Origin: Candidatus Nitrotoga sp. LAW
Lineage (GTDB): Bacteria; Pseudomonadota; Gammaproteobacteria; Burkholderiales; Gallionellaceae
DNA length: 44,552 nucleotides
Reading direction: 5' to 3'
Assembly (NCBI GenBank): GCA_003402315.1
Contig: QFXI01000008.1
Location: forward strand, 1 to 44,552
Below are positions 2,478 to 37,801 of this stretch, one piece after another. Position 1 is the stretch's first letter. Each line of letters opens with the position of its first letter. A program made the position numbers and the translations under genes. Under the pieces are notes generated by a model, which was not told the DNA's origin, ran no database searches, and saw only the letters and a list, made by a program, of their open reading frames with translations.

Positions 2478-2485
2478 GGTAAATT

Positions 2486-2941
2486 ATGAAGTGGATTACC
2501 CGTGAGCGCCCGAAGATCGACCGCATTGCTTGCCCTTGGCTAGTCGCACGATTCCTCGATAAAGAGCCAGAATTTCTCTACGTACCCGCCGGTGACGTAT
2601 TGCACATCGCCGACGAAACCGGCGCGATTCCCTACGACATACCGGGCGTCGAATTGACACATGACGGTGAACTCTGCAGCTTCGACGCCTTCCTGAAAAA
2701 ATATAAGCTCAAAGATGACGCCTTGCAGCAATTGGCCGTCATCGTACGCGGCGCGGACACCTCACGGCTCGATCTCACACCGCAGTCGTCAGGGCTCTAT
2801 GCCCTATCGCTCGGTCTGTCGCAAAACTTCAGTGACGACCACGAGATGCTCAAACACGGCATGGTGATGTACGACGCGCTCTACGCTTGGTGCAAGCATT
2901 GCCAAAAGGAAACGCACAACTGGCCCCCTGTAATGCGCTAA
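2486..2941 (+). CDS. Free-standing ChrB C-terminal domain protein
   Basis: 151 residues that align with only the C-terminal half of ChrB: RERPKIDRIACPWLVARFLD at the N-terminus here corresponds to the RRRPWVDRLASAWLIRRF stretch of the full-length ChrB encoded upstream. It lacks the DNA-binding region, so it is not expected to be a repressor on its own. It starts 8 nt after the chrA stop, with a GAGGTAAATT ribosome site, and belongs to the same operon. Such short proteins are annotated as chromate resistance proteins of unknown biochemical role. It could form mixed dimers with ChrB or act directly on chromate; nothing in the sequence decides between these. Two Cys-containing motifs (ACPW near 12-15 and CKHC near 138-141) could bind metal. 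Confidence 0.8.
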   Translation: MKWITRERPKIDRIACPWLVARFLDKEPEFLYVPAGDVLHIADETGAIPYDIPGVELTHDGELCSFDAFLKKYKLKDDALQQLAVIVRGADTSRLDLTPQSSGLYALSLGLSQNFSDDHEMLKHGMVMYDALYAWCKHCQKETHNWPPVMR

Positions 2942-2982
2942 TTTCCCCCGCGTCCCTATATACAAAATACAAGGAGATTCCC

Positions 2983-3906: not shown

Positions 3907-3943
3907 ACTCCTGCGATGGTGTGGATGGGGAGCACGCTTTGCA

Positions 3944-4999
3944 TCATTTTTTCGGGTCAGGTTTTACATCGTGTTTGTTTCCCATTTCGTACCAGCCATG
4001 GCTACGCTTGACCAGATATACCACGGACAGCATCACTGGAACCTCAATCAATACGCCGACCACGGCGGCAAGTGCCGCACCGGATTCGAAGCCGAACAAG
4101 CTGATGGCGGCAGCGACTGCCAATTCAAAGAAGTTGCTTGCTCCGATCAATGCTGACGGACCCGCTACGCAGTGCGCTTCACCGAAGCGGCGATTCAGCC
4201 AATAGGCCAAGCCGGAATTGAAATAAACCTGAATGATGATAGGCACGGCGAGCATAACAATAATAAGCGGTTGCTCGACGATGGCTTTGCCTTGAAAGGC
4301 GAATAACAATATCAGCGTGAGCAACAATGCGGAAATGGAGAGCGGGTTCAACATGGACAGGGCATGATGCAGTGCTGCCATTCCGCCGCGTGCCAACAGG
4401 TACTTGCGCCAAACCTGTGCCACCAAAACGGGCAGCACAATGTATGACACCACTGACACCAGCAGCGTATCCCAAGGCACGATGATGGATGAGATTCCCA
4501 GCAGCAGCCCCACCAGCGGCGCAAAGGCGAACACCATGATGGAATCGTTTAGCGCGACTTGGCTCAGGGTGAATAGCGGCTCACCGTTCACCAGCCGGCT
4601 CCACACGAACACCATCGCGGTGCAGGGTGCGGCGGCAAGCAGAATCAGGCCTGCAATGTAGCTGTCGAGTTGCTCCGCTGGCAGATACGATGCGAACAAT
4701 TGCCGGATGAACAACCAGCCAAGTAACGCCATGGAAAAGGGTTTGACCGCCCAGTTGACGAACAGTGTGACACCGATGCCGCGCCAGTATTTGCGTACTT
4801 CGTGCAAAGCCGTGAAATCTATGCGTAATAGCATGGGAATGATCATTACCCAAATCAGCAGCCCAACGGGGATGTTGACCTTGGCAATCTCCAATTCACC
4901 CAGCCAGTGAAACGGTGCGGGGATCAATTGTCCCAACACCACCCCGACGATAATGCACAGAAAAACCCAGACTGTCAGGTAACGCTCGAAAATGCTCAT
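3944..4999 (-). CDS. acr3: Arsenite efflux permease of the ACR3 family
   Basis: 351 residues from MSIFERYLTVW. The start at 4999 is preferred over longer readings because it lies 4 nt after the arsC stop codon. About ten hydrophobic segments are visible. The fourth contains AAPCTAMVFVWSRL, the ACR3 signature with the cysteine essential for arsenite transport; NDSIMVFAFAP and an INVGLA-type late segment (VYFNSGLAYW) also fit. The family extrudes arsenite, driven by proton motive force. It is the last gene of arsR-arsC-acr3 and converges on the chromate operon, whose last stop is only 37 nt away. No clear terminator is visible between them, so the two mRNAs may overlap at their 3' ends. Confidence 0.93.
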   Translation of the reverse strand: MSIFERYLTVWVFLCIIVGVVLGQLIPAPFHWLGELEIAKVNIPVGLLIWVMIIPMLLRIDFTALHEVRKYWRGIGVTLFVNWAVKPFSMALLGWLFIRQLFASYLPAEQLDSYIAGLILLAAAPCTAMVFVWSRLVNGEPLFTLSQVALNDSIMVFAFAPLVGLLLGISSIIVPWDTLLVSVVSYIVLPVLVAQVWRKYLLARGGMAALHHALSMLNPLSISALLLTLILLFAFQGKAIVEQPLIIVMLAVPIIIQVYFNSGLAYWLNRRFGEAHCVAGPSALIGASNFFELAVAAAISLFGFESGAALAAVVGVLIEVPVMLSVVYLVKRSHGWYEMGNKHDVKPDPKK

Positions 5000-5003
5000 G
5001 GTG

Positions 5004-5492
5004 TTAATCCTTGATGTGTCCGATTTTGGCAATCTTGTCCATTTCGGCCTTGAGCGCGGCCTTGTCATGCTTCAGCACTTCCAGATTCAGTGAAAAAAAT
5101 GCTTCGATGCGGGCACGCAAAATGCGGTAAGCCTTCATGAACGCCGCATCAATCTCTTCATCCGTGCCCGTGGCGTGCGCCGGATCTTCCACGCCCCAGT
5201 GGGTGCGCAGCACTGAGCCGAGGTAGGCCGGACAAGTTTCTCCCGCAGCACTGGCACAAACGGTGATGACTATATCGGGCGCGGCGGGTAGATTCTCCCA
5301 AGACTTACTGCAATAACCTTCGGTGGAGATGCCTTCGCTCGCCAGCAATGCCAGCGAGCGCGGATGCACCTTGCCGGTAGGCTTGCTGCCCGCGCTCATG
5401 GCACGCCAACCAGCCGGCGCAAGATGATTGAAGGTGGCTTCGCCGAGGATGGAACGGCAGGAGTTACCCGTGCAGAGAAAGAGTACGTTCAT
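5004..5492 (-). CDS. arsC: Arsenate reductase, LMW-phosphatase fold
   Basis: 162 residues, somewhat longer at the C-terminus than the ~135-residue relatives. The P-loop CTGNSCRS gives nucleophile Cys7 and Arg13. Cys79 and Cys87 (VITVCASAAGETCP) match the two resolving cysteines of the thioredoxin-coupled reductases, and Asp103 in the WGVEDPA loop is the expected general acid. The enzyme reduces arsenate to arsenite for export by Acr3. The Cys79-Cys87 spacing has one residue more than in the Staphylococcus enzyme, which is minor. It lies 14 nt downstream of arsR and 4 nt before acr3. The extra C-terminal helix (about 125-162, Lys/Glu rich) is unusual in length but carries no recognised motif. 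Confidence 0.93.
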   Translation of the reverse strand: MNVLFLCTGNSCRSILGEATFNHLAPAGWRAMSAGSKPTGKVHPRSLALLASEGISTEGYCSKSWENLPAAPDIVITVCASAAGETCPAYLGSVLRTHWGVEDPAHATGTDEEIDAAFMKAYRILRARIEAFFSLNLEVLKHDKAALKAEMDKIAKIGHIKD

Positions 5493-5506
5493 GTTCAGGG
5501 TTTAGA

Positions 5507-5866
5507 TTAAGTTGGGGGAATTGGTAAGAGAACGCCTGTGGAACAGGCCGATGCCGTTAGCAAATCAATACACTGCTGAGGATTGCCGGAACAGCATTCC
5601 TCAGTCAGGTAAGCAATCAGATCCAACATCAAGGGGATATTGGCGCGATAACGCTGGTAACGGCCTTCCTGTTGAACTGTCAGCAGGCGTGTGTGCGTCA
5701 ATGCTTTCAGGTGGAAGGAAAGATTGGTGGGCGGCAGTTCAAGCGTTGTCGCGATTTCACCCGCCACCATACCGTCTAGCCCTTTTTTGACCAGTAGCCG
5801 AAATACGTCTAACCGCACGCTGGAAGAAAGCGATTCGAATACTGAAGTTGCAGTAAGTTTATCCAT
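5507..5866 (-). CDS. arsR: ArsR-family repressor with C-terminal cysteine site
   Basis: 119 residues with the winged helix-turn-helix of ArsR/SmtB proteins (VAGEIATTLELPPTNLSFHL at about 34-53, wing LLTVQQEGRYQRY at 61-73). The classical ELCVCDL arsenite motif in the DNA-binding helix is absent. Instead cysteines cluster behind the wing: Cys91, Cys92 and Cys99 (EECCSGNPQQC), plus Cys108. This arrangement resembles the Acidithiobacillus ferrooxidans type, in which arsenite is bound at the C-terminus. It heads the arsR-arsC-acr3 operon and presumably represses its own promoter. The start codon is 6 nt from the -10 box, so it may be translated without a leader. Confidence 0.92.
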   Translation of the reverse strand: MDKLTATSVFESLSSSVRLDVFRLLVKKGLDGMVAGEIATTLELPPTNLSFHLKALTHTRLLTVQQEGRYQRYRANIPLMLDLIAYLTEECCSGNPQQCIDLLTASACSTGVLLPIPPT

Positions 5867-5872
5867 TTTTCA

Positions 5873-5901
5873 ATTGTACAACAATAGTTGAAATATTGCA
5901 A
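5873..5901 (-). promoter_or_regulatory. Promoter and probable ArsR operator
   Basis: On the minus strand a -35 TTGCAA (5896-5901) and a -10 TACAAT (5873-5878) are spaced by 17 nt, a strong sigma-70 arrangement. The spacer holds a dyad, CAAC (5879-5882), 4-nt centre, GTTG (5887-5890), positioned so that a bound ArsR dimer would block polymerase. The arsR ATG (5864-5866) begins 6 nt past the -10, leaving no room for a ribosome binding site. Confidence 0.65.
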
Positions 5902-6285
5902 TATAGCCGAAGATGCAGTCTACAGCACCCCGCACAAACCTCTACACATTACACAGCTAAATTTGCCCAGAATAAAATTTAGTTACGCAGATTAAAATCT
6001 TTCGTTAACCTTAATTTATAATTTATAGATCGTACAATATTGGGCTGTTGGCATAGCTAATTCGAACACTTTGTGCTTTATAATGGCAACACTATGTTGG
6101 CAATTAAATAATTTGGATAGCAAACGACACGATGCGACGGCCAAAATAGGCAAGGCAAAAACAATAGGCTATTTAACAATAATGAGGGCAGCGTCACGCA
6201 GCTGCGTGTAGGTAGATAGCGTAATTTAACAACATCATAACTTTTTTATACAATAACTTATGATGATATACAGGGAGATAAAGTT
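5902..6285. other. AT-rich intergenic region, no gene seen
   Basis: About 380 bases between the ars promoter and the Sel1 gene. No reading frame with a ribosome site was found. A TATAAT-like hexamer occurs at 6079-6084, but no good -35 lies at the right distance. GCAGCGTCACGCAGCTGCGT near 6188 can fold into a small hairpin. A promoter for the Sel1 gene must lie here but cannot be placed with confidence. Confidence 0.5.
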
Positions 6286-6321
6286 ATGCAGCTGGTAATA
6301 ATGATAGGCGTAATATGGTAG
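6286..6321 (+). other. Overlapping 11-codon leader reading frame (or broken signal peptide start)
   Basis: An ATG at 6286 follows a good Shine-Dalgarno (AGGGAGA, 6272-6278) at 7 nt and encodes MQLVIMIGVIW before a TAG at 6319-6321. The stop overlaps the ATG of the Sel1 gene (6315) in a different frame. The peptide is hydrophobic, like the beginning of a signal sequence. Two readings are possible: a leader peptide that couples translation to the next gene, or the original start of the Sel1 gene separated by a small frameshift. Confidence 0.4.
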
Positions 6322-6989
6322 CGCTAACACATCCAAAGTTAACTGAAGACTTTGAAGAAGGAATGAAGTTTGTCGCTAACAAGGATTACACCAGAGCGGC
6401 AGAATTATTTACGAAAATTGCAGAACAAGGACATGCGGAAGCGCAGTTCTATCTAGGGCTTATGTGCGAAGGGGGTCAAGGCCTCACAAAAAATGAGCAG
6501 CAGGCTGTGTCTTGGTGGACCAAGGCCGCAGAACAAGGGCACGTACTAGCACAAAACAATCTAGGACTTATGTACGAACAAGGGCATGGTGTTACACAAG
6601 ATTACCAGAAGGCTGCATCTTGGTTCCGTATGGCCGCAGAGCAGGGAGATGCAGAAGCCCAATATACTTTAGGATTTATGTACGCAAATGGCGAAGGCGT
6701 TTCACGGGACTACCAACAAGCTATGCTTTGGTTGAGTAAAGCCGCAGAACAGGGAGATGTAGCGGCACAATTCAAGGTGGCCAAATTGAATTTAGGATCC
6801 GTATATACACCAGACAACAACGTTCAACAGGATTTTATTGAAGCATACAAATGGTTCAGTATTGCTGGCGCAGATGGTGATGCAAATGCAAAAGACGGCT
6901 TAGAGATTGCAGAGTCGTACTTGACACCATCTGCCGTTGAAGAAGCGCAACGACGGGCAAACGAGTGGCTAGCGAAAAATAAAAAATGA
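6315..6989 (+). CDS. Sel1-repeat (SLR) protein
   Basis: 224 residues made mostly of Sel1-like repeats of 36 residues. Four regular units start near residues 34, 70, 106 and 142, each with the pattern AEQGxAxAQxxLGxMYxxGxGVxxDYQxAxxWxxKA. The last is longer and less regular (VYTPDNNVQQDFIEAYKWFSIAG). The repeats form an alpha-solenoid that binds other proteins; no catalytic residues are expected. From this ATG there is no signal peptide and only a weak ribosome site, whereas a strong one sits before an overlapping short frame at 6286. The gene stands alone, with no clear operon partner. A relative with much more uniform repeats lies at the right end of the window. Confidence 0.82.
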   Translation: MVALTHPKLTEDFEEGMKFVANKDYTRAAELFTKIAEQGHAEAQFYLGLMCEGGQGLTKNEQQAVSWWTKAAEQGHVLAQNNLGLMYEQGHGVTQDYQKAASWFRMAAEQGDAEAQYTLGFMYANGEGVSRDYQQAMLWLSKAAEQGDVAAQFKVAKLNLGSVYTPDNNVQQDFIEAYKWFSIAGADGDANAKDGLEIAESYLTPSAVEEAQRRANEWLAKNKK

Positions 6990-7152
6990 ACTTATGAATA
7001 AAACGATCGCCAATGACTATGGCAATTTTTTAAATTGAGCATTCAATTACGAACGTACTGATGGCCTACCATAAATAGCGAAACTGCAAGGCAGTGGAAT
7101 GAAGACAGTATCTACCATCGCACTACCCTGATATCAGGTGGTAAATAAACGG

Positions 7153-7512
7153 TCAAAACGTCACATTACGGTCTCGTTCGGCTACTGCCTTGATGTAATC
7201 CGGCATTCCTTTAATTGATGCGCCAGTTACTAAATCCTCTACCATAATCTGCCGAGCCACGGCGCAGGCACCGCAGACCCAAATCTGCACGCCTGCCGCC
7301 TGTACCGTAGCTAGCAGTTCTTTCAATGGAGTCAGATTCACACCGTGGATATGATCGGCCGTTCCTTTACGGCCAAGTGTCACGGCTTCGTTCCAGAGCC
7401 AGAGCACCACATCATGCCCTTGCTCCTTTGCCGTCTTCGCGGCCATGAAGGGCAATGTGGCCATCGTTGGATCATCTGTGCCTCGACTACCGGATATTAC
7501 GAAGGTTGTCAT
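7153..7512 (-). CDS. DsrE/DsrF-like small sulfur-relay family protein
   Basis: 119 residues starting MTTFVISGSRGTDDPTMATL, a single DsrE/F-type alpha/beta domain. The family covers sulfur-transfer subunits and many uncharacterised cytoplasmic proteins. Cys80 and Cys83 (VCGACAVAR) lie where family members carry their active-site cysteine. The start is supported by AAGGAGATA 6 nt upstream. It is 128 nt downstream of the catalase gene on the same strand. There is no dsrF, dsrH or tusA neighbour, so a dissimilatory sulfur pathway cannot be claimed. The company of catalase and superoxide dismutase suggests a thiol or oxidative-stress role, by inference only. Confidence 0.75.
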   Translation of the reverse strand: MTTFVISGSRGTDDPTMATLPFMAAKTAKEQGHDVVLWLWNEAVTLGRKGTADHIHGVNLTPLKELLATVQAAGVQIWVCGACAVARQIMVEDLVTGASIKGMPDYIKAVAERDRNVTF

Positions 7513-7640
7513 TATGTATCTCCTTGTTCATTTATTCGTAAAAATATATAGGCCTATCATCATAATGTTATTTATGGCGCTAGCTTTTTCTTCACGTCTT
7601 CAGAAATGGTTATCTCCGATTCACAAAATTAGCAATTCAT

Positions 7641-9101
7641 TTAGCTTTTCGGAACTTCGCTCAGCGGAATACACAGTGCCGTGGCCACTCCTTCACCATA
7701 GGCCGGATCCGCTTTCAGGCAATTTATAATATGGCGAATATGAATTTCGCGCGGTGCACTCTTAATGGAACGTGCGGTGTTCTCGAATAGCACCTGCTTC
7801 TGCGCAGGCGCCATTAGGCGAAATAAGGCACCAGGCTGCGAGAAGTAATCCGTATCTTCACGATGATTCCAATGTGCGGCAGCCCCCTCTAGGCTTAGCG
7901 GCGGCTCAGTATAATCCGGCTGTTGCTGCCATTCGTCATAGCTGTTCGGTTCATAGCCTAGGGTGCTGCCATGGTTGCCATCCACACGCATTGCACCATC
8001 ACGATGTGAACTGTGAAATGGGCAGCGTGCGGCATTGACAGGAATCAGGTGGTGATTAACCCCCAAACGATAACGCTGCGCGTCACCATAGGAAAAAAGT
8101 CTCCCTTGCAGCATTTTGTCTGGAGAAAAACTAATGCCGGGCGGCACATTGGCCGGGTTAAAAGCGGCCTGCTCGACTTCAGCGTGATAGTTTTCCGGGT
8201 TGCGGTTGAGCTCCAGAATACCAACATCAATCAGCGGATAATCCTTATGTGGCCAAACTTTGGTCAGATCAAAGGGATGGTAGGAAACCTTCGCGGCATC
8301 GGCTTCAGGCATAATTTGCACGCTCATCTTCCATTTTGGAAAATCACCGCGCTCAATGGCTTCATACAGGTCACGCTGGTGGCTTTCACGGTCTTTTCCG
8401 ACCAGCGCCTCAGCCTCGGTATCGCTAATATTCTTAATTCCCTGCTGGGTTTGCAGATGGAATTTAACCCAGTAGCGTACATTATCAGCGTTGATAAAAC
8501 TAAAAGTATGGCTGCCAAAGCCGTGCATATGGCGGTATGTGGCAGGGATTCCACGATCGCTCATTACGATGGTGATCTGGTGTAATGCCTCTGGCAACAA
8601 CGTCCAGAAATCCCAATTATTTTTTGCGCTGCGCATATTGGTGCGTGGATCGCGTTTTACCGCATGGTTTAGGTCGGGAAATTTCAGTGGGTCTCGCAGA
8701 AAGAATACCGGAGTATTATTGCCGACCAGATCCCAGTTTCCTTCCTCAGTGTAAAACTTGATTGCAAAACCCCGAATGTCACGCTCGGCGTCCGCTGCAC
8801 CGCGCTCTCCGGCTACGGTGGAAAAACGAACAAATAAATCAGTTTTTTTACCTACCTTGGAAAAAATTTTTGCCCGTGTATATTGAGTAATGTCGGAAGT
8901 TACGGTAAAGGTACCAAAAGCGGCGGAACCCTTTGCGTGCATACGCCGCTCCGGGATAACTTCGCGGTCAAAATGGGCAAGTTTCTCCAGAAACCAGACA
9001 TCCTGTAGCAATTGTGGTCCCCGTGCACCGGCAGTCATCACGTTCTGGTTATCGACTACCGGACAACCCGCATTGGTGGTCAATTTCTTTTTATCACCCA
9101 T
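7641..9101 (-). CDS. katA: Monofunctional haem catalase
   Basis: 486 residues, the size of small-subunit (clade 3) catalases. The active-site stretch [20 protein letters not shown] places the distal histidine at 55, [13 protein letters not shown] gives the distal asparagine near 128, and the proximal haem tyrosine lies in [14 protein letters not shown] near 338. The enzyme converts hydrogen peroxide to water and oxygen, and no export signal is visible. It lies 105 nt downstream of sodC on the same strand, so superoxide dismutase product could be removed by a neighbouring gene's enzyme, though the two act in different compartments. The symbol is given by family; the sequence does not separate katA from katB naming. 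Confidence 0.95.
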
Positions 9102-25029: not shown

Positions 25030-28000
25030 TTAATCCAACACTGGATGACCATTAACAAATACCGCAAATTCTTCAGCTGGCAGTGGATGGCTATAATAAT
25101 AGCCTTGGATCTCATCACAGCCTCGAGCGCGTAAAAAATCCAGTTGTTCCAACGTTTCTACTCCTTCCGCAATGACCTGTAATTTAAACTGGTGACCCAA
25201 ACTAATAATGGAACGCACGATAGCTGCGTCATTTTCATCAATAGCGACGTCACGTACGAAGGATTGATCCACCTTCAGTCGATCGAGTGGCATTTTCTTC
25301 AAGTAACTAAGGCTAGAATAACCAGTACCAAAGTCGTCTATGGCCAATTGCACTCCGAGCTCATGCATCTGGGTCAGAAAAGCCATTGACGCTTGAGCCT
25401 CGTTCATCATGACGCCTTCAGTAATTTCCAACTCCAAATCCTTTGGATGCAGCCCCGTTTCTTCTAATACGGCGATGATCATTTGCGCAAGCTGAGGTTG
25501 ACGTAATTGACTGGTGGATAAATTTATAGATATCGGGAATATGGATATCCCTTGCCGCCTCCATTCGGCTAGTTGCGCGCAAGCTGAGCGCAACACCCAT
25601 TCTCCTATGGGTATAATCTGCCCGGTCTCCTCAGCCACGGGAACAAATTCTGCTGGCGCAACAAAGCCCTTCTCTGGATGTTTCCAGCGCAGTAATGCCT
25701 CTGCACCGCACACCATTCCATTGACCAAGTTTACCTGGGGCTGATAATGCAATGTGAACTCATTGCGCTCCAACGCTAGGCGCATGTCATTTTCCATAGA
25801 AAACAGTTGATGGGCACGAAAATTCATTTCCGGCGCAAAAAACAGAAAATTGCTGCGGCCCTCAGCTTTTACACGATACATCGCCACATCCGCATGCTTG
25901 ATCAACGTATTGATTTCGTCTTCACTATCCGCATTGTCAGGATAAATACTGATGCCGATACTGGCATGAGTGGCGATTTGCATCGTGCCAACATCGCAAG
26001 GAGTAGTCATCGCCTTGAGTATCTTGCCCGCCACACGTGCCGCACCGCTTGCATCAGTCTCTCGCAGCAACACGATAAATTCGTCGCCACTGATACGCGA
26101 CACAGTGTCTACCTCACGCACACATTCCTGCAAACGCAACGCCACCGCCTGCAATAATTTATCGCCCACCGCATGCCCCATCGAATCATTTACATACTTA
26201 AAGCGATCAAGATCAATGAATAGCAATGCAAATTTATGCTCATCACGGTGTGATTCAGCGATCAACTGCCCGAGACGGTCATGCAGCAAAGTACGGTTGG
26301 GCAGACCAGTCAACACATCGAAATAAGCAAGGGACTGAATATGCTGCTCAGATTCCTTACGCTTGGTGATATCAACCCTAACAGATATGTAACGTACAAC
26401 TTGCCCGTTCGCATCTTTGAGTGGCACGATAGTGCTATCCACCCAATACAGTGCGCCGCTTTTTGCGCGGTTACAAATTTCACCGCGCCAGATGTCACCT
26501 CGGGCGATGGTAGCCCACATTTCGGCGAAAAAGGCGCTTGAATGCATCCCGGAATTAACAATACGGTGATCATGACCGACCATTTCCTCCCGGCTGTAAC
26601 CGCTTACTTCACAAAATTTATCATTGGCCTGAATAATGCGCCCGGAAGGGTTGGCAACGGAAACGAGGGCGTGCTGGTCAATCGCTTGGATATAGCTGAT
26701 TAACTCTGCGGAACTGCGCTCGGCGTCTTCTTTGGCACGCAGCAGCAAGCTTTGAGTTTCCTTGCGGGCTGTGATGTCATGGATAAAGGCGCAAAACTCA
26801 TACTTACCCTTTTGCTTGACCGGGGATATTGCCAATTCAATGGCAAATTGGTGGCCATCGCGATGCAAGCCCGTTATCTCTATACGTTTATTCAGTACAG
26901 CTCCCTCGCCGGAAGCCAGAAAATGTTTCAAACCCTGAATATGCGCATTACGATACTGCGGTGGGATGATCATATCGTGTAGCATGTGTCCGATGGTTTC
27001 TTCCCGTGCCCAACCAAAAATCTTTTCTGCCTGACCATTCCATCCGGTGAGAATACCCTCTGAATTCATTAGTATTACGGCATCCGGGGCGGCGTCAATA
27101 ATGGTGTGCAATCTCGTATCAATCTCGACCAGCTCCATTTCCTCCAGCTTTCGGCTGGTCACGTCCTGAACGACACCCAGCATTTTCAGCGGAATTCCAT
27201 CTGTATCACGTATTACACCGCCACGCTGGTGTAACCAACGTACCGTACCATCTGGCCAAATAACCCGGTGTTCTATGTCGTATTTAGTATTTTCTTCAAC
27301 ACAGCTCTTCATGGAATTGATCATATACTGACGGTCATCAGAATGTATGCCGCTCAGGAAATCATCATAAGTACCATTCTGTTTTCCTGCAGGACAGGCC
27401 ATAAGGACAGAAATATGGTCGCACCAATACAGTTCACTAGTGCGAATATCCCAATCCCAAGTGCCGATCTCGCCATACATCAAACTAAGGCGTAAACGCT
27501 CCTCACTCTCAATCAATCGTTCATTTATCTTCCGCGCAGTTCGAAGAGCGTGTTCCCGACCCTGCACCAGCAATCCTGTGAATAACCCTAGCAATATACT
27601 CACGGCTAAGCCAGCCACGACAATGGATTGCGATTTTTCTTCGGCCAGCTGCGCCTCAAAACTAGGGAGAGAGCTAGCAGCCATTGTCCAGGTGTGTCCA
27701 GCAATTTCAAGGTGTTTGGAAGCGCGAAAGAACGAATCTACAGCACTAATTTTGTTGGTGCTGTCGGCAGCATACATGAGCATTTTGCTCGACATGTTTT
27801 CGCCATCGTAGATTTTGATGTCGATGTCAAGAACACGTGCACCGAGAATGCCACGTATAAAATCATCCGTCCGAAATAGAGCACTAACCCAGCCAATAAG
27901 ATTGGCGCGGCGCTCAGCCAAAGTAGCATATAGCGCACCGTTTTTATAAACAGGTAAATACATCAAAAAACCAGTCTGCGCGCTTTCACCATGTTTTTGT

Positions 28001-28605
28001 ATCAGCTTTGTCTTGCCAGTGATAACAGCTTTATCGTTATCACGCGCTTGCTCCATTGGAACGCGCCGTACTGGATCGGAATACATGTCGTCACCAAAAG
28101 CACGTTGAATACCCTCTGAGAATGGCTCGATGAAGATAACAGAGGTAGTGATATATCGCTTCCCACCAGGACTGATGGTGTATGCGGGAATGCCTTCCTT
28201 GTAAACGGTGGCGGCAATGTGTTTGTCTTGCTTCGCCGCGGGTACGATTAGCGAAAAACCCACACCCTGTATACCGGGAAAACTCTCCACAATATGTTGA
28301 GCGACGATGTAAGCATGAAATTCGTCGCGCTCTACGCTAGTGGAAGCGGCGAATAAACCTTGCACGCCCCGCAGCGCTTGTTCCAAAGATTGCATACGTT
28401 GTTCAATGCGGTTACTGACATCCAGCAAACGAAAATCGAAATCATATTGCAATTCCCGTACCGCTTCATAGCGTGCATTTTTCCACAACTGATGGGTTAC
28501 AACTAAAGAAACAATCACGACCAACCATGGTAAAAATCGGACAGCAGGGGACCATGATAGTAGCTGCTGAATGGGATTAATGCGTGATGTTGATGAGGTC
28601 ACCAC
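25030..28605 (-). CDS. CHASE-PAS-GGDEF-EAL cyclic-di-GMP signalling protein
   Basis: 1191 residues. Membrane spans at about 23-39 and 328-347 bracket a periplasmic CHASE sensor domain (about 75-310). Three PAS/PAC domains follow (about 370-485 with GTWDWDI and a PAC WPDGTVRWLHQRGG, 495-610, 640-750), then GGDEF (about 760-920) and EAL (about 935-1180). The diguanylate cyclase signature reads SGDEF in SRISGDEFIVLL. The phosphodiesterase residues look complete: EALLRW, NLSTSQL, ELEITEG, DDFGTGYSSL, KVDQSFVRD and VIAEGVET. The protein probably degrades cyclic-di-GMP and may also make it; the Ser-for-Gly change does not by itself abolish synthesis. The ligand is unknown. It is monocistronic. Confidence 0.9.
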   Translation of the reverse strand: MVTSSTSRINPIQQLLSWSPAVRFLPWLVVIVSLVVTHQLWKNARYEAVRELQYDFDFRLLDVSNRIEQRMQSLEQALRGVQGLFAASTSVERDEFHAYIVAQHIVESFPGIQGVGFSLIVPAAKQDKHIAATVYKEGIPAYTISPGGKRYITTSVIFIEPFSEGIQRAFGDDMYSDPVRRVPMEQARDNDKAVITGKTKLIQKHGESAQTGFLMYLPVYKNGALYATLAERRANLIGWVSALFRTDDFIRGILGARVLDIDIKIYDGENMSSKMLMYAADSTNKISAVDSFFRASKHLEIAGHTWTMAASSLPSFEAQLAEEKSQSIVVAGLAVSILLGLFTGLLVQGREHALRTARKINERLIESEERLRLSLMYGEIGTWDWDIRTSELYWCDHISVLMACPAGKQNGTYDDFLSGIHSDDRQYMINSMKSCVEENTKYDIEHRVIWPDGTVRWLHQRGGVIRDTDGIPLKMLGVVQDVTSRKLEEMELVEIDTRLHTIIDAAPDAVILMNSEGILTGWNGQAEKIFGWAREETIGHMLHDMIIPPQYRNAHIQGLKHFLASGEGAVLNKRIEITGLHRDGHQFAIELAISPVKQKGKYEFCAFIHDITARKETQSLLLRAKEDAERSSAELISYIQAIDQHALVSVANPSGRIIQANDKFCEVSGYSREEMVGHDHRIVNSGMHSSAFFAEMWATIARGDIWRGEICNRAKSGALYWVDSTIVPLKDANGQVVRYISVRVDITKRKESEQHIQSLAYFDVLTGLPNRTLLHDRLGQLIAESHRDEHKFALLFIDLDRFKYVNDSMGHAVGDKLLQAVALRLQECVREVDTVSRISGDEFIVLLRETDASGAARVAGKILKAMTTPCDVGTMQIATHASIGISIYPDNADSEDEINTLIKHADVAMYRVKAEGRSNFLFFAPEMNFRAHQLFSMENDMRLALERNEFTLHYQPQVNLVNGMVCGAEALLRWKHPEKGFVAPAEFVPVAEETGQIIPIGEWVLRSACAQLAEWRRQGISIFPISINLSTSQLRQPQLAQMIIAVLEETGLHPKDLELEITEGVMMNEAQASMAFLTQMHELGVQLAIDDFGTGYSSLSYLKKMPLDRLKVDQSFVRDVAIDENDAAIVRSIISLGHQFKLQVIAEGVETLEQLDFLRARGCDEIQGYYYSHPLPAEEFAVFVNGHPVLD

Positions 28606-28860: not shown

Positions 28861-30243
28861 TTAATGCTGCAACGATTTGATTATATCCTCGACTACCTTT
28901 TTCGCATCGCCAAACACCATCATGGTTTTGTCTAAATAGAACAAATCATTATCCAATCCAGCATAACCAACAGCCATACTGCGCTTAACCACCAGAATAG
29001 TGCGCGCCTTATGCGCATCAATAATTGGCATACCATAAATAGGACTGTTCGGGTCGGTTTTAGCTGCAGGATTCACCACGTCGTTGGCGCCAATAACCAA
29101 CACTACATCAGTATCGGCAAATTCGTTATTGATCTCATCCATTTCTAATACCTGATCGTAAGGTACTTCAGCCTCAGCCAGCAACACGTTCATATGTCCC
29201 GGCATACGTCCGGCCACAGGATGGATGGCATAACGCACTTTGACGCCCTTCCCGATTAAATGCTCGGCCATTTCGTTGATGGCATGTTGTGCCCGCGCCA
29301 CCGCCAGACCATAGCCCGGCACGATAATGACGCTATCCGCATTCCCCATCAGGAACGCAGCGTCATCCGCACTACCGCTACGCACCGGTCGTTGTTCAAC
29401 CTCACCAGCCCCCCCCGCTTCACCATCACCACCGCCAAAGCCACCAAGAATCACATTAAAAAAGGAGCGGTTCATCGCCTTGCACATAATGTAGGAGAGA
29501 ATCGCGCCAGAACTACCCACTAACGAACCAGCAATAATCAGCATATTATTATTTAGGGTAAAGCCAATGCCCGCCGCTGCCCACCCAGAATAGGAGTTAA
29601 GCATGGATACCACGACTGGCATGTCCGCCCCGCCAATCGGCATAATCAGTAATACGCCGAGCAATAGCGCCAAAGCAATCATGATCAGGAATGGCGTCCA
29701 GCTTTCCGTAAAAATGAACATGATGCCGAAGGCGATCATCACAACACCCAACAACAGGTTGAACCAGTGCTGTCCAGCAAAATGAAGCGGCTTGCTGCCG
29801 AGTTTACCGGATAATTTTCCGAAAGCGATGATAGAACCGGTGAATGTAATCGCACCAACAAACGTGCCGATGAATAACTCAATCAGGTTGCTGGCGTGCA
29901 GCGGTGCGATGCCATAAGCGACTGGATTATAAAACGCAGACATAGCAACCAACACCGCCGCAAGGCCGACCAGCGAGTGCATTGCCGCCACCAATTCCGG
30001 CATGGCAGTCATTTGAATGCGCCGGGCGACCACGGCACCTACCGCTCCGCCCACGATGATGGCAAGCGCAATATAAATCAGGTTCTGGGTGATAGTCAGT
30101 GTGGTGAGCACCGCAATGGCCATACCTATCATGCCAAACATGTTTCCGCGCCGCGCGGAAATTGGAGAACTCAAGCCTTTCAGCGCCAGAATGAAAAGAA
30201 CTGCGGCGATCAGATAGGCTAATGCAACAAAATTTGCCGACAT
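28861..30243 (-). CDS. pntB: NAD(P) transhydrogenase subunit beta
   Basis: 460 residues. The N-terminal ~265 form the membrane domain dII with about nine spans (MSANFVALAYLIAAVLFILA onward). The C-terminal part (about 290-460) is the NADP(H)-binding domain dIII, with SVIIVPGYGLAVARAQHAIN, HPVAGRMPGHMNVLLAEA and VLVIGANDVVNPAA. A Gly-rich linker (GGFGGGDGEAGGAGE) joins them. With PntAA and PntAB it forms the proton-driven enzyme that moves hydride from NADH to NADP+. It lies last in pntAA-pntAB-pntB, with a 150-nt gap to pntAB. Confidence 0.95.
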   Translation of the reverse strand: MSANFVALAYLIAAVLFILALKGLSSPISARRGNMFGMIGMAIAVLTTLTITQNLIYIALAIIVGGAVGAVVARRIQMTAMPELVAAMHSLVGLAAVLVAMSAFYNPVAYGIAPLHASNLIELFIGTFVGAITFTGSIIAFGKLSGKLGSKPLHFAGQHWFNLLLGVVMIAFGIMFIFTESWTPFLIMIALALLLGVLLIMPIGGADMPVVVSMLNSYSGWAAAGIGFTLNNNMLIIAGSLVGSSGAILSYIMCKAMNRSFFNVILGGFGGGDGEAGGAGEVEQRPVRSGSADDAAFLMGNADSVIIVPGYGLAVARAQHAINEMAEHLIGKGVKVRYAIHPVAGRMPGHMNVLLAEAEVPYDQVLEMDEINNEFADTDVVLVIGANDVVNPAAKTDPNSPIYGMPIIDAHKARTILVVKRSMAVGYAGLDNDLFYLDKTMMVFGDAKKVVEDIIKSLQH

Positions 30244-30396: not shown

Positions 30397-30693
30397 TTAT
30401 TTACTTTTCTTCTTGAACATGCTCAGCATGCGCTGTGTTACCAGAAAACCACCGAACACATTAACTGCCGCCAGCATAACTGCGATTAACCCCATTACTG
30501 TGCCGACGTCGAGTTGCTCAGGCCCCGCCGCCAGCATGGCACCAACGATGATAATGCCGCTAATTGCGTTGGTCACTGCCATAAGCGGTGTATGCAGCGC
30601 AGGCGTAACATTCCATACCACGTGATAACCGACCACCACGGCCAGTACAAATACGGTTAGATTGATAATGACAGGATCAACTGCACTACTCAT
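30397..30693 (-). CDS. pntAB: NAD(P) transhydrogenase subunit alpha, membrane part
   Basis: 98 residues from [15 protein letters not shown] at 30693, chosen because AGGAG lies 7 nt upstream; longer in-frame readings have no family similarity. Three membrane spans are visible (about 9-27, 40-60, 64-85), with the typical [20 protein letters not shown]. This is the small separate membrane subunit of the split transhydrogenase known from Rhodospirillum-type systems; in E. coli it is fused to the C-terminus of PntA. Confidence 0.94.
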
Positions 30694-32085: not shown

Positions 32086-35000
32086 TCAAGATGTACTTGT
32101 TATCATGCCATCTCGTTCGAGGCAATGTGCTATCCATTGCGCTGTAAGTTTTTCCTGCACGGTATTTTGTTTGAGCCGTGCATTCAAACCGGGGAAATTT
32201 ACGCAGTCTAGTCTTTGATCCTGGTTGAAACAGGAGAATACATAAGTCTTTTCCCCGGTTACGATATCAAAGTGCTCCTGAATGCACTGGCCGCAAATCT
32301 CTTTCATCATGCATTGCATTGGTGAGTTGATGGAACCATATGCATGGTGATCCGGTTTCATATAGGGCTTCAGCTCGCCATGGCGGGCCGCCGCAACCGC
32401 AGCCATCATCCTATCTGAACCAATCGCAATAATACGGTCGACCTGATTCACCTCAATTTCTGGCCGCCCTAATTCACCGCTGGCATAAGCTTTAATGGCC
32501 TGCACAATGTTGCCTACATAAGTTCGATCTTGGGGGCGACTCGGTATAAAGCCGGGAGCTTCATCGCTGCACCAAATCACCACATCAGCGGCCAACTCGA
32601 TGTCGTCCACCTTATAGCGGTCTATCATTTTTTTATAGCCAGCAAAGTAAAGTACTTTAGAGCCAACACTTCTAAATGCCTTACCGATAGAAAATAATAC
32701 GGCGTTACCCAATCCCCCACCAACCAACAATACAGTTTCTTCCGGAGCAATTTCAGTAGGGGTGCCGGTTGGCCCCATAAGCACTACGGGTTCACCATGT
32801 TCCAGCTTGGCGCATAGTTGCGACGAGCCACCCATTTCCAAAACGATGGTGGAAAGCAATCCTTGTTCCGCATCAACCCAGGCTCCGGTCAAAGCTAAAC
32901 CTTCCATGACCATGCGCGTACCCTCTACTTGTGCAGCATGCGTCTCAAAATTCTGCAAACGATAAAATTGCCCTGGCTGGAAGCTGCGCGCCGCAGCAGG
33001 AGCCTTGACGATTACTTCAACAATATTAGGGGTAAGACGGACCACTTTGTGTATCGTGGCACGCAGATCATTGCCCAATCTGGCAAGGAATACATCATCA
33101 TTTTCTTTGCTTGCTGCGGCAACTTGTGACAACACCCTGCTCAACACGGGATAGCCCTGCTTGGCACTACCCATAGCCTTGACCACGTTGCCCGAATAAG
33201 AAGGATGCAGGTCACCGAAAAAGCTGACGAAACGGCCATCATGGTACTTATACTGAAGCACGTGTGCCTTAGCCGGCTTGGCATTGCTCCGCTCCGGCTT
33301 GACTGGTTCTCCCTGCTCGTCACATGCTTGGAAATAGCGCCCGTCCAACTTGAACTGTTCGGGAAACTCGCGTGCCAGCACGGTATTCGGCTGGGTACCC
33401 GCAGCCACAAAAATAGTACGCGCCGGCAGATGGATTTGTCCGGTTTTCTGCCAGACTCCCTCGGCATCTAATACCTGGTTCATCACTACCATGGCAGTCG
33501 CATCGCCGTTTGTATCGATCTCTACCCGCACCGGCGTCATACCTTCGGCAAAATAAATTCCTTCCTCTAAGGCTTTCTCCACTTCCTCATGATTGAGGGT
33601 ATAGGAGGGACTATCGATCAGTCGCTTGCGATAGGCCAAAGTAACACCTCCCCAGGATTTGATAAGCTGAAGGATATTGGGTTTTCGTCCTTCAATTGCG
33701 GCCTGGGTCCGCTCCACACGTATAGCCCGGGCATGGTTCAAAAATTCTTCGCCAACAATGGCTTCTGCCGCCGACCACATACCGCGCACTGCCGCCTCTC
33801 CCTTTTCTGCTACTAACGTTTCATAGCGGCAAAGAAATTTTTCAACTTGTACCGGATAATAGGCGAGTGACTCAGTGGCTGTGTCAATCGCAGTCAAGCC
33901 ACCGCCAATTACCACAACCGGCAAGCGAACTTGCATATTGGCGATGGAATCTGGTTTTGCGGCTCCAGTCAATTGCAATGCCATAAGAAAATCCGACGCA
34001 GTGCGCACACCACATGCCATACCGTTTGGTATATCAAGCAATGTAGGGCGACCAGCGCCCGCAGCCAGTGCGATATGATCAAAGCCCAGCCCAAAAGCAC
34101 TTTCGGCCGTAATGGTTCCACCGAAGCGCACCCCCCCAAACAGCGCAAACTGTGCACGCCGCTCAAGTAACAGGCGAATAATTTTGAGAAAATTCTTATC
34201 CCATCGAACCGTAATACCGTATTCGGCCACCCCGCCAAAACCGGCCATAACCCTATTATCCAGCGGCTCCGTCAATATGCTTGCATCATAGACTGGGCTA
34301 AACGCCACTCGATTGCCGCCCGCGTCCACACCGGACAACTCACCCGGCAATGGTTCAATCTTCAACCCATCGACACCGACAACGGTATGCCCGTCATTCA
34401 TCAAATGGTGCGCCAGCGTAAAGCCGGCGGGACCCATACCAACGACAAGCACACGCTTACCGGTGCCTGTTTTCGGATAGGGACGCCAGAAATTAAGTGG
34501 ATTCCACCTGGTAAGCAGACTGTAAATCTCAAAGCCCCACGGCAGTTCCAGAACATCCTTCAATGACCGGGTTTCAGCCTGTGGAATGTTTACCGACTCT
34601 TGTTTTTGATAAATGCAAGATTTCATGCAGTCATTACATATACGATGCCCCGTTGCAGCACACATCGGGTTATCCACCGCGATGATAGCCAAAGCACCCA
34701 ATGCAAAACCGGACGCTTTAACTTTATGAAATTCTGAAATTTTCTCATCCACAGGACAACCCGCCAGTGGAATGCCGAAAATACTTTTCTTAAATGGCGG
34801 AAGAGAACCATCAACCCCGGCTTTTTCCCGCATACCGACCGAGCAGGAATCCTTGCCTTGCTCATGGCACCAAATGCAGTAATTCGCTTCACCCAAGGCA
34901 CCAGCCAAGTCTGTACCTTTATCTGTAAGGGCAAAACCCTCGCGATGGCGGAGATGGCTATCCGCGAGGCGATGCGCAGTGTAAGGAACATTCTCAACAG

Positions 35001-35670
35001 GAACGATAGGCACCAGGCGCTGGAAATCAAGCTTAGCAGGAACCCTGAACAATACACCCTGCCCATGACGCTTTTTTCCGGCAGTAGTATGCACAGCCCA
35101 AGCCGCATATCGCATGGCGATATCGATCCGGTCAATATTTTCTGCCTCAGCGTCAAGCCAACTGTTAACTTTTCGGGCGAAAAGTAATTCACTCATTTCA
35201 CTGGTAGAATCACCGAAAGCCTGCAACAACTCGGTTCTGAGGATATCGCCATCAAAAGCCGCGGCATCCGCCGCCTTATATTTCTGTACTGCCTTGCGCT
35301 GGACAAAAATACGTTTGCAGTGAAATAACGGCGCTAACTCATTGTGTCGCTCTGCTAACTCCCGAACTGCGATCTGAATATTAAATAGTTGACCCAGAAA
35401 ATCTTCCAAATGTGGAGCCAGCTCGATAATGAGCTTTGATTCTTCCAGATGCGACATGCGATCTGGAGCATTACGCGCTGCCGCCAGCTTTTCTGCCAGC
35501 AATGGTTCGCCTTTAGCAAGTTCAGTCAAAAAACAGGAGTCGATGCTGGGTAACCCATCGCAGCTGTAGAGATATTCAAATTTCATTCCAAATCCCAGTT
35601 TTAAAACTGGGGGTGGAATTATTCCAGTATCAGCACCTGTGCTACGTTGCTGAGAATTTAAGCTTTCCAT
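32086..35670 (-). CDS. Fused Nfn-like flavoprotein: GltD-type plus PyrK/NfnA-type halves
   Basis: 1194 residues from the ATG at 35670 (AGGAG 9 nt upstream; a TTG one codon earlier is possible). Residues 1-260 are unrecognised. Two cysteine groups follow: about 266, 269, 277, 306 (CIWCHEQGKDSC, GCPVDE) and about 338, 346, 349, 353 (CAATGHRICNDCMKSC), resembling the 4Fe-4S module of GltD/NfnB. An FAD motif VGMGPAGF lies near 411 and a second dinucleotide motif VVVIGGGLTAID near 595. From about 850 a ferredoxin-reductase-like domain (FQPGQFYRLQN, VLLVGGGLGNAVLF) ends in a PyrK-type 2Fe-2S cluster (Cys 1121, 1127, 1130, 1148). The order matches NfnB and NfnA joined. It likely transfers electrons between NAD(P)H and another carrier; partners are unknown. 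pntAA lies 190 nt downstream. Confidence 0.8.
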   Translation of the reverse strand: MESLNSQQRSTGADTGIIPPPVLKLGFGMKFEYLYSCDGLPSIDSCFLTELAKGEPLLAEKLAAARNAPDRMSHLEESKLIIELAPHLEDFLGQLFNIQIAVRELAERHNELAPLFHCKRIFVQRKAVQKYKAADAAAFDGDILRTELLQAFGDSTSEMSELLFARKVNSWLDAEAENIDRIDIAMRYAAWAVHTTAGKKRHGQGVLFRVPAKLDFQRLVPIVPVENVPYTAHRLADSHLRHREGFALTDKGTDLAGALGEANYCIWCHEQGKDSCSVGMREKAGVDGSLPPFKKSIFGIPLAGCPVDEKISEFHKVKASGFALGALAIIAVDNPMCAATGHRICNDCMKSCIYQKQESVNIPQAETRSLKDVLELPWGFEIYSLLTRWNPLNFWRPYPKTGTGKRVLVVGMGPAGFTLAHHLMNDGHTVVGVDGLKIEPLPGELSGVDAGGNRVAFSPVYDASILTEPLDNRVMAGFGGVAEYGITVRWDKNFLKIIRLLLERRAQFALFGGVRFGGTITAESAFGLGFDHIALAAGAGRPTLLDIPNGMACGVRTASDFLMALQLTGAAKPDSIANMQVRLPVVVIGGGLTAIDTATESLAYYPVQVEKFLCRYETLVAEKGEAAVRGMWSAAEAIVGEEFLNHARAIRVERTQAAIEGRKPNILQLIKSWGGVTLAYRKRLIDSPSYTLNHEEVEKALEEGIYFAEGMTPVRVEIDTNGDATAMVVMNQVLDAEGVWQKTGQIHLPARTIFVAAGTQPNTVLAREFPEQFKLDGRYFQACDEQGEPVKPERSNAKPAKAHVLQYKYHDGRFVSFFGDLHPSYSGNVVKAMGSAKQGYPVLSRVLSQVAAASKENDDVFLARLGNDLRATIHKVVRLTPNIVEVIVKAPAAARSFQPGQFYRLQNFETHAAQVEGTRMVMEGLALTGAWVDAEQGLLSTIVLEMGGSSQLCAKLEHGEPVVLMGPTGTPTEIAPEETVLLVGGGLGNAVLFSIGKAFRSVGSKVLYFAGYKKMIDRYKVDDIELAADVVIWCSDEAPGFIPSRPQDRTYVGNIVQAIKAYASGELGRPEIEVNQVDRIIAIGSDRMMAAVAAARHGELKPYMKPDHHAYGSINSPMQCMMKEICGQCIQEHFDIVTGEKTYVFSCFNQDQRLDCVNFPGLNARLKQNTVQEKLTAQWIAHCLERDGMITSTS

Positions 35671-35795: not shown

Positions 35796-35816
35796 AAAAA
35801 ACCCGGCTATACCGGG
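35796..35816 (-). terminator. Terminator-like hairpin in the leader of the fused flavoprotein gene
   Basis: On the minus strand CCCGG (35812-35816), loop TATAG, CCGGG (35802-35806), then six T (35796-35801). It lies about 126 nt upstream of the flavoprotein ATG and 26 nt downstream of a TATAAT (35842-35847) on the same strand. It therefore sits inside the presumed leader and could attenuate transcription. No opposite-strand gene needs it: mutL points away. Confidence 0.55.
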
Positions 35817-35841
35817 CAGTAATAATTTTTATTAACTTGAG

Positions 35842-35923: not shown

Positions 35924-37801
35924 ATGTCCGCCATACAGCTATTACCTGATCTGCTCATCAACCAAATCGCTGCTGGCGAAGTTATCGAACGTCCTGCCGC
36001 CGCGCTTAAGGAGATGCTGGAAAACAGCCTGGATGCAGGTGCCACCGAAATAATCGTGCAACTGGAAGGTGGCGGCGTGAAATTGCTGCGTGTGCGCGAC
36101 AATGGCAGTGGCATCGCGCCAAACGAGCTGCCGTTCGCCCTGATGCGCCATGCGACTAGTAAGATTGCCTCACTAGCCGACTTGCAGCGCGTCGCCAGCA
36201 TGGGCTTTCGCGGCGAGGCTTTAGCCAGCATGGCGGCAGTAGCACAGGTAACCCTTACCAGCCGCAAGACGGAAAGCTCACATGCTTGGCAGATTCAATC
36301 CGGGGATGGCACACAAAGTGAAGTTACTCCTGCTGCGCACGCTCAGGGCACCAGCGTGGAAATACGCGAACTGTATTTCAACACCCCGGCACGGCGCAAA
36401 TTCCTCAAGTCCGAAGCCACCGAACTCGCATACTGTGAAGAAACCTTCAAGCGCATCGCACTGTCACGCCTGGATGTCGCCTTCAGTATGCAACACAATA
36501 ACCGCATGATGTGGCAATTACCCACACTATCACGCTCAAGCCATGCATCCTTTACATCGATCTCCCAGCTTCCTGAAGTAAGCTGGGAAGAAAAAGCAGA
36601 CGCATTACCAAAGCGCATCGAAGCCATGCTCAGCAAAGAATTTGCGCAAAGTGCGGTGCCTGTCTCTCGTAAGACAGCTGGATTGCATTTATATGGCATG
36701 GCTTCCCTGCCCGCTTATTCGAAAGCATCACGCGAAGCTCAATATTTTTTTGTGAATGGACGTTTTATCCGCGACAAGATAGTCGCCCATGCCATCCGAC
36801 AAGCCTATCAGGATATTCTTCACCACCAGCGCCATCCAGCCTTTGTGCTATTTCTCGATATGCCGCCAGAATTGGTGGACGTGAATGTGCATCCTGCCAA
36901 GAGCGAAGTCCGCTTTCGTGAAAGCCAGGCCATTCATCAATTCGTGTTTCACACGCTGCAACAAGTGTTGAGCACGCCCGTGGCTCTGACAGAAAACGCG
37001 TCTAACCTATCGGAGCAACTAGCCCAGGTTCCACCCGCGCAACGAACCACATCGATACAGCAACCTATGCGGTTGCACATGGCATCACAGCCGCTGGCTT
37101 TTTACGATGCTCTTTTTGGCAAGAAAGAAAACAGGGGAAAAGAAGAGGAAAAGTTCAATGACGTGCCCTTTTCAAACATTCAACCTCACGCTCAATCTTC
37201 TACGTCAGAAACTGAAATTCCACCGCTTGGCTTTGCCCTGGCACAGCTTGCCGGTATCTACATTCTGGCGCAAAACGTACATGGATTGGTAGTAGTGGAC
37301 ATGCATGCCGCCCACGAGCGTATCGTATACGAAAGACTTAAAGCGACATTTGATGGACAACAAATTCCTATGCAACCGCTGCTAATCCCGGTGAGCTTTA
37401 CTGTCGAGGCATTGGACATTGCCACAGCCGAAGAAGAGCACGCAGCCATGGCACAACTCGGTTTTGATATCGCTCCATTGTCGCCGACAACACTGGCAGT
37501 GCGGGCCATGCCTGCTATGCTTAAACAGACTCACGCCGAAGCTGCCGCACGTGATGTATTGCATGAAATGCGTGAATACGGCGCCACTCGAGTGTTGACC
37601 GAACGACGCAATGAACTGTTATCCACACTGGCCTGCCATTCCGCGGTGCGCGCCAATCAAATCCTTTCCGTGCCTGAGATGAATAATATTCTGCGTGAAA
37701 TGGAACGCACAGAACGCTCCGGCCAGTGCAATCATGGTCGCCCAACTTGGTTTCAAATGAGTATTGCAGAATTGGATACGCTGTTCATGCGGGGAAAATG
37801 A
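35924..37801 (+). CDS. mutL: DNA mismatch repair protein MutL, endonuclease type
   Basis: 625 residues. The N-terminal GHKL ATPase is complete: [20 protein letters not shown] near 16-35, DAGATEI near 37, [13 protein letters not shown] near 57 and [14 protein letters not shown] near 90-103. The C-terminal dimerisation domain begins near 430. It contains [12 protein letters not shown], matching the DQHA(X)2E(X)4E metal-binding endonuclease motif with Met for Gln, as well as [10 protein letters not shown] and CNHGRPT. This is the pattern of nicking MutL proteins (for example Neisseria) and not of E. coli. A low-complexity linker lies at about 345-425. It overlaps miaA by four bases (ATGA). Confidence 0.95.

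Follow-up and report, generated by a model that had tools for sequence, protein, structure and literature searches.

A stretch of 44,552 nucleotides (nt) from Candidatus Nitrotoga sp. LAW (contig QFXI01000008.1; hereafter, the window) encodes a 1,194-residue protein that joins a GltD-type module and a ferredoxin-reductase-like module behind an all-helical N-terminal domain. The iron–sulfur (Fe–S) ligands of Nfn enzymes, including a glutamate, and the arginine at flavin N5 align with residues that are essentially invariant among relatives of this fusion, which, together with the modelled fold, argues that it is an Nfn-like single chain. We further propose, with a probability of roughly one half, that it acts as an Nfn-type, probably bifurcating NAD(P)H:ferredoxin oxidoreductase that has FdxA as its partner, feeds sulfite reductase and, within its clade, is coupled to the transhydrogenase Pnt.

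Modules and cofactor sites of the fusion

The fusion gene starts with an ATG at 35670 (a TTG lies at 35673) and ends with a stop codon at 32088–32086 (Table 1). It is the sole match to its own product in the 2.81 Mb genome at E 0.001, and its conservation along the chain in 18 aligned homologues (57–92% identity in 17, 38% in the remaining one) shows that it is no chance open reading frame. Pfam places Pyr_redox_2 above its cut-off at residues 406–787 and Fer4_20 just under its cut-off at residues 303–366. The NCBIfam model NF005128/PRK06567 covers residues 23–737 with 754.6 bits, against 92 bits for NF009415, and is the only match at E 1e-60 for six scanned relatives. As every tested protein falls below its curated cut-off of 1,072 bits, the window's lineage lies outside the curated equivalog; the name PRK06567 was not found in the literature searched. 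The label of that model, ‘putative bifunctional glutamate synthase subunit beta/2-polyprenylphenol hydroxylase’, would make the fusion a glutamate synthase subunit. The label is unfit because the genome has its own, separate GltD (contig C28; 475 amino acids (aa), 760 bits), and this identity, to which we give next to no probability, is refuted on present evidence: the fusion scores 42.9 bits against the GOGAT small-subunit model TIGR01317 (cut-off 447.7), and no gltB-like gene was recognised among its recurrent neighbour families.

Table 1 Features of the fusion and its surroundings in window coordinates
Feature	Position	Strand	Basis
pntB	28861..30243	minus	Pfam
pntAB	30397..30693	minus	Pfam
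pntAA	30770..31894	minus	Pfam
Terminator-like stem and T-run, between fusion and pntAA	31918..31934	minus	
Fusion gene, 1,194 aa, stop codon included	32086..35670	minus	
Predicted [2Fe–2S] site, residues 1120–1147 (C1120, C1126, C1129, C1147)	32230..32313	minus	alignment
NfnS/PyrK-like FAD and NAD module, residues 868–1110; GGGLGNA motif 984–990 intact	32341..33069	minus	
GltD/NfnL-like FAD and NADP(H) module, residues 405–860	33091..34458	minus	alignment, model, fold search
Two predicted [4Fe–4S] clusters, residues 265–366 (C265, C268, C276, C305, C345, C348, C352, E366)	34573..34878	minus	alignment
All-helical N-terminal domain, residues 31–201	35068..35580	minus	models; NF005128 coverage
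Terminator-like stem and T-run, upstream of fusion	35801..35817	minus	
mutL, divergent neighbour of fusion	35924..37801	plus	

An AlphaFold2 model of the window protein, computed with 71 homologues, has a mean predicted local distance difference test (pLDDT) score of 87.6 and a predicted template modelling (pTM) score of 0.90. In a Foldseek search of the PDB, its top match is the large subunit of NfnI (5jca_L, E 7e-21, template modelling (TM) score 0.80 by target), and the NfnI small subunit ranks seventh, on the C-terminal module and ahead of glutamate synthase chains (5jca_S, E 6.6e-18, TM 0.86); chains of DPD occupy many of the other high ranks. Identity in the structural alignments to NfnI is 21–24%. 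A profile search of PDB sequences is likewise led by XfnL and NfnI-L (E 1.1e-18 and 2.2e-16), followed by NfnA and NfnI-S. The original prediction, made from the sequence letters alone, had read the protein as a GltD-type and a ferredoxin-reductase-like module in one Nfn-like chain, and the Pfam domains, the structures that match each module best and the cofactor ligands all agree with it.

Fold and ligand alignment both support a GltD-like module with predicted flavin adenine dinucleotide (FAD) and two predicted [4Fe–4S] clusters; the module also contains a helical insertion at about residues 603–672. We allocate the individual ligands to the two clusters by assumed analogy with DPD and NfnL. 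All eleven cysteines and E366 are conserved in 112–113 of 113 rows, each exception being a gap or one row. The four C-terminal cysteines, predicted earlier as a PyrK-type cluster, are invariant in 72 aligned rows, and PyrK itself has four cysteines at its [2Fe–2S] site. E366, kept in 112 of the 113 rows, aligns with a glutamate of NfnI-L in the profile alignment, and R489, kept in all 113, with its R201. In the available portion of PMC10482914, the proximal cluster of NfnB is Glu-ligated and R201, which bonds flavin N5, is held to be crucial for bifurcation, and we infer that E366 may be the counterpart of that glutamate. In the same kind of alignment Y680–R681 line up with the YRR of the equivalent XfnL loop, which would favour NADP(H) at the GltD-like site.

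The small module is consistent with an NfnA/NfnS unit carrying FAD, a [2Fe–2S] cluster and an NAD(H) site: its fold match is that given above, its four cysteines are kept, and its GGGLGNA aligns with GGGVGVA of NfnI-S. The Asp(Cys)3 ligation of the P. furiosus enzyme is replaced by four cysteines, although the aspartate may not define the family. A seeming resemblance between the C-terminal tail and NfnA was rejected, as that stretch scores only 2.1 bits.

The small module is also where a different mechanism could be sought, namely a non-bifurcating NADPH:ferredoxin oxidoreductase resembling NfnII, with the C-terminal module a relic or serving another acceptor. A precedent is the NfnII of P. 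furiosus, which is closely related to NfnI and, according to the part of PMC8097209 available to us, works without bifurcation. Moreover, the NAD glycine motif is lost in three relatives (L190, L150, L034) and altered in a fourth (L189) while the [2Fe–2S] cysteines stay. By contrast, the motif is intact in the window protein, G984–G986 are invariant in 72 of 72 alignment rows, and the presence of pnt beside the fusion in two nitrifier groups fits the use of both nucleotides; we consider this alternative possible but doubtful. All five divergent relatives (these four and L191, which unlike them keeps the NAD-motif glycines) retain the Fe–S ligands, and they offer a natural set of proteins for testing which of the modules is essential.

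The N-terminal domain is modelled as helices only, with pLDDT above 90 in most blocks. The original prediction did not recognise the first ~260 residues and suggested structure prediction and a structural search for them. Both were run and gave a helical fold with no relative: Foldseek of the domain's own model against the PDB, with the viral fold library left out, reached a best E of 2.8, and the PDB sequence search one of 0.22. Pfam has no match for residues 1–257 of the window protein, and over the domain in 72 aligned rows it returned four unrelated families in one row each (best E 0.02). However, NF005128 contains the sequence from residue 23 onwards, so the domain is unexplained but not unlisted. 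It aligns even in divergent relatives, including those in 1.3–1.4 Mb genomes (L190, L191), where some of its conserved residues are lost. As a guess, it might be a docking part for ferredoxin or sulfite reductase.

Genomic neighbourhoods of the fusion

GTDB genomes hold at least 563 confirmed pattern-matched stretches, a count in which the same gene can appear twice; 80 loci from among them were retained for neighbourhood work. The record titles of these loci, some of which are doubtful for metagenome-assembled genomes, include Nitrosomonas, Nitrosovibrio, Ca. Gallionella acididurans, Azospirillum, Dongia, Bryobacterales and Planctomycetota. Genes of the 80 loci and the window were called and clustered without naming any beforehand. 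Models named Pnt (Pfam, in the window), FdxA (NCBIfam, in a plasmid copy and whole genomes) and the sulfite/nitrite reductase superfamily (PF01077, in whole genomes); the names of neighbour families, such as the Cys proteins and ctaA, are our presumptive assignments from recall.

The commonest neighbour families are CysH (14 loci), PntAA, PntAB and PntB (12 each, window included) and a paralogue-rich ABC ATPase (12), followed by CysD (12), CysN (11) and CysB (11). Twelve Nitrosomonas/Nitrosospira-type loci share, with gaps, the order cysB (divergent), sulfite reductase, (DUF934), cysH, cysD, cysN, fusion; two of them (L068, L074) showed neither cysD nor cysN, and pnt follows the fusion in 10, the other two being L054, which ends too soon, and L074, which is without pnt. 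In four loci (L045, L049, L051, L057) mutL lies beyond cysB, whereas in the window it directly precedes the fusion, divergent together with miaA, so that the window resembles the cys–fusion–pnt locus minus its cys block. The genome of the window has a sulfite reductase–DUF934–cysH–cysD–cysN operon on contig C9 (L161).

Of the 65 GTDB loci that extend at least 3 kb upstream of the fusion, 14 have same-strand cys genes there, L086 and L112 among them; outside these 14, cys genes are convergent in L105 and sit 6–9 kb away on the opposite strand in L107. In another class of the phylum, which was taken for Alphaproteobacteria, 10 of the 37 loci with at least 3 kb upstream (40 fetched) have upstream cys genes, two of the ten having only a cysG-like gene and one (L195) duplicating L086 from the same genome. 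Two of nine same-order loci show them as well (G039 = L163, G030 = L170). The gene fdxA is found 7–88 bp upstream in 4 of the same 65 GTDB loci (L076, L085, L096, L105), about 64 and 17 bp upstream in two of the nine same-order loci (L164, L165) and next upstream on plasmid pTcM1 of Acidithiobacillus caldus (L150); it was directly upstream in none of the 40 other-class loci, and in L047, L056 and L075 it lies further upstream, at about 4 kb. A FastTree tree was built from 111 rows, 14 of them of unknown state; it gives no direction for the changes and has many weak forks. The cys state, counting L105, changes on it at least eight times, and adjacent fdxA, present in five rows, changes five times.

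These neighbourhoods favour a role in supplying ferredoxin, often for sulfate assimilation, over one in plain balancing of NAD(P)H. The missing third partner of the enzyme is most likely FdxA encoded elsewhere in the genome, where one FdxA scores above the cut-off; we infer that sulfite reductase is the main electron user. The original prediction saw no ferredoxin gene in the window, and a six-frame motif scan, the only search made, concurs, its sole CxxCxxCxxxC match being interrupted by a stop codon.

The same neighbours might instead mean that the fusion substitutes for CysJ and docks straight on sulfite reductase through its helical domain, without ferredoxin. Such docking would fit three observations: L086/L195 and L170 have a sulfite reductase-like gene immediately upstream, several groups carry cysHDN upstream, and the window's genome gave no CysJ match. 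It appears unlikely to us, given fdxA directly upstream of the fusion in seven loci, and the small genomes L190 and L191, which keep the fusion and in which no cys gene was found within the roughly 6 kb retrieved to either side.

Other neighbours were noted as well. A ctaA-like heme A synthase gene is divergent upstream in 14 of 40 other-class loci (L172–L211) and occurs in 6 of the 80 GTDB loci (L078, L081, L086, L090, L094, L113); heme A synthase also needs ferredoxin-type electrons. In L175 and L176 the fusion adjoins what we take to be a pyruvate:ferredoxin oxidoreductase-like gene (1,228 aa in the example) and formylmethanofuran-dehydrogenase-like C1 genes. On the mobilizable pTcM1 (L150, 3809–11483) the fusion sits with a GntR regulator, an AprA-like flavoprotein (NF006131), a small 4Fe–4S protein, a HEAT-repeat protein and fdxA, and the cluster continues on the other strand with a porin and a nitrate/taurine/sulfonate-type ABC transporter. 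Partly similar gene sets occur in L047, L056, L059 and L075, and the plasmid cluster is possibly an uncharacterised sulfur-acquisition cluster.

Downstream of the fusion, gene positions agree with the earlier description of pntAA–pntAB–pntB on the same strand. The general association with pnt then suggested stands only in part. It holds in 13 of 13 genomes of the genus tested (own included). Among the 61 GTDB loci that extend at least 2.5 kb downstream it holds in 11, ten of which are titled Nitrosomonas, Nitrosospira, Nitrosovibrio or Nitrosomonadaceae and one a near relative; a further locus with a shorter downstream stretch (L037) shows the start of pntAA. It fails in the other class, where pnt was seen in none of the 34 loci with at least 2.5 kb downstream and in none of six shorter ones, and Pnt is in any case near-universal (24 of 26 genomes with the fusion, 12 of 13 without). 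A single fusion–pnt operon is doubtful because a terminator-like stem precedes pntAA, although such sites show no excess in the region (10 observed, 8.7 expected from shuffles). Secondary structure in the fusion–pnt gap does not exceed that of shuffles (z −0.81). Directly downstream of pntB, on the same strand, lies a gene for a 1,191-aa CHASE–PAS–GGDEF–EAL protein (25030–28605).

The original prediction took the locus for a possible one of cofactor balancing, in which fusion and Pnt would work in the NADPH-forming direction. The adjacency of pnt in the genus and in ten Nitrosomonadaceae-type loci is what speaks for this. Most homologues, however, have no pnt nearby, Pnt is equally common with and without the fusion, and RnfC, one possible source of the reduced ferredoxin needed and the only source searched for, is absent from the genus genomes. 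Such balancing therefore has little probability in our view.

Host, distribution and the contrast with Rnf

The host is probably a nitrite-oxidising bacterium. Contig C33 of its genome (L215) carries at 1633–8315 an operon of the type II dimethyl sulfoxide (DMSO)-reductase family with products of 1,169, 385, 373 and 246 aa. According to the portion of PMC6050957 at hand, nitrite oxidoreductase belongs to that family; the operon is perhaps nitrite-oxidoreductase-like, and the 8.7 kb contig perhaps a collapsed repeat. A Dsr-sized sulfite reductase pair, judged by size, is found in 0 of 13 genus genomes versus 4 of 5 sister-genus genomes, and the available text of PMC10734462 reports the same contrast between Ca. 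Nitrotoga and iron-oxidising Gallionellaceae.

In a search of 41 genomes, the fusion was matched, in some cases in pieces, in all 19 of the genus (own included), in none of six from six other genera of the family and in 9 of 16 from other families of the order. An NF005128 search across the phylum found it in 15 of 299 genomes (own included), and 68 of 289 genomes of the other class carry it. Because PMC10734462, in the same available text, lists Rnf and a ferredoxin among the gene clusters of the iron oxidisers, we searched for RnfC. It scored above its curated cut-off in none of the 19 fusion-bearing genus genomes versus all six fusion-free sister-genus genomes; weak matches below the cut-off also occur in other genomes of that search. 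RnfC was found in none of five other fusion-bearing genomes. In the other class it occurs in 7 of 289 genomes and in none of the 68 that carry the fusion, which is too few to count.

Proposed role and comparison with known systems

In the mechanism that we propose, NADPH would be oxidised at the GltD-like FAD, from which one electron would pass through the [2Fe–2S] cluster and the second FAD to NAD+, and the other through the Glu-ligated and all-Cys [4Fe–4S] clusters to FdxA. Reduced FdxA would then serve sulfite reductase (sulfate assimilation takes six low-potential electrons per sulfite) and probably further ferredoxin users. In the genus and in Nitrosomonadaceae, the proton-translocating Pnt would return the NADH formed to NADPH by spending the proton gradient, so that the fusion and Pnt as a pair would drive ferredoxin reduction in an aerobe without Rnf. 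The fold, the ligand set, the family, the neighbourhoods and the lack of RnfC in the genus genomes searched are shown; bifurcation and the coupling to Pnt are the least certain parts.

Several observations weigh against this proposal. As NfnII lacks bifurcation, sequence alone cannot reveal that property in the fusion; the NAD motif is eroded in the relatives named above; and the first [2Fe–2S] ligand is a cysteine, versus the aspartate reported for P. furiosus sulfide dehydrogenase in the source text available. A tight unit of Pnt and fusion is doubtful, weakened by the clade-limited link and the terminator-like stem, and the tree does not join the window's clade with Nitrosomonadaceae, the intervening forks being weak. 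The majority of loci have none of cys, fdxA or pnt as a neighbour, and in the window's genome the fusion shares its contig with neither the cys operon nor fdxA. FdxA-type and sulfite/nitrite-reductase-type genes occur in 33 of 33 genomes tested, with the fusion or not, and CysJ exceeds its family cut-off in only one of the 33, and its absence does not discriminate. The exclusion between RnfC and the fusion amounts to about one evolutionary contrast and is confined to the family; in the rest of the order, 2 of 9 genomes with the fusion and 1 of 7 without it have RnfC. We rejected as support any co-occurrence, at the level of whole genomes, with Pnt, FdxA, sulfite reductase or CysJ, since none separates fusion-bearing from fusion-free genomes.

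To our knowledge, the reductant of sulfite reductase in bacteria without CysJ is poorly settled, and this fusion family is a concrete and widespread candidate, with FdxA as its partner. Its fdxA and sulfur-gene neighbours suggest how aerobic microbes may obtain electrons of very low potential. If bifurcation holds, ordinary sulfur assimilation in aerobes would draw on it, and ferredoxin reduction would become a further role of Pnt in chemolithoautotrophs dependent on reverse electron flow. More speculatively, the proton gradient could charge ferredoxin in aerobic nitrifiers lacking Rnf, a cycle of Pnt and the Nfn-like enzyme having replaced Rnf when the genus left its iron-oxidising relatives and powering sulfite reduction in CysJ-less bacteria; we hold this wider scenario only tentatively.

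Compared with known systems, the fusion resembles NfnI in the folds of both modules and, by alignment, in its [4Fe–4S] ligand set with the glutamate and in the flavin-N5 arginine. It differs in being one chain with the large module first, in its extra helical N-terminal domain and in the insertion at about 603–672, and it has a fourth cysteine where the P. furiosus [2Fe–2S] site has aspartate. Many of its hosts are aerobic, unlike the anaerobes that use two-part Nfn. The original prediction held that NfnA and NfnB are normally separate subunits, which is only partly right: three fused kinds, patterns B, C and D, are already described in the available portion of PMC6405883. A single chain alone is thus not new. 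Pattern C we take to be PRK12779/NF009415. It is reported, again in that portion of PMC6405883, from Actinobacteria, Alpha- and Gammaproteobacteria, and resembles the fusion in being a single chain with the FAD/NAD/[2Fe–2S] module C-terminal; it is described as ~200 aa longer than other fused Nfn, one of which is encoded by a 2,274-bp gene whose product the window chain exceeds by ~430 aa. None of the patterns described there (A–D) has such an N-terminal domain. The model NF005128/PRK06567, by contrast, spans that domain and the GltD part. NfnABC and StnABC also have a GltD-like NADPH module in their large chain. NfnABC bifurcates in separate subunits. StnABC does so in its StnAB subunits, as given in the available part of PMC10482914, and the fusion has no such module. 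Rnf would share the proposed output, ion-gradient-driven ferredoxin reduction, but is an unrelated membrane complex, mutually exclusive with the fusion within this family only. Set against these systems, what is new to us is the N-terminal domain, the insertion, a four-Cys [2Fe–2S] site in an Nfn-like chain and the recurring link to fdxA and sulfate assimilation.

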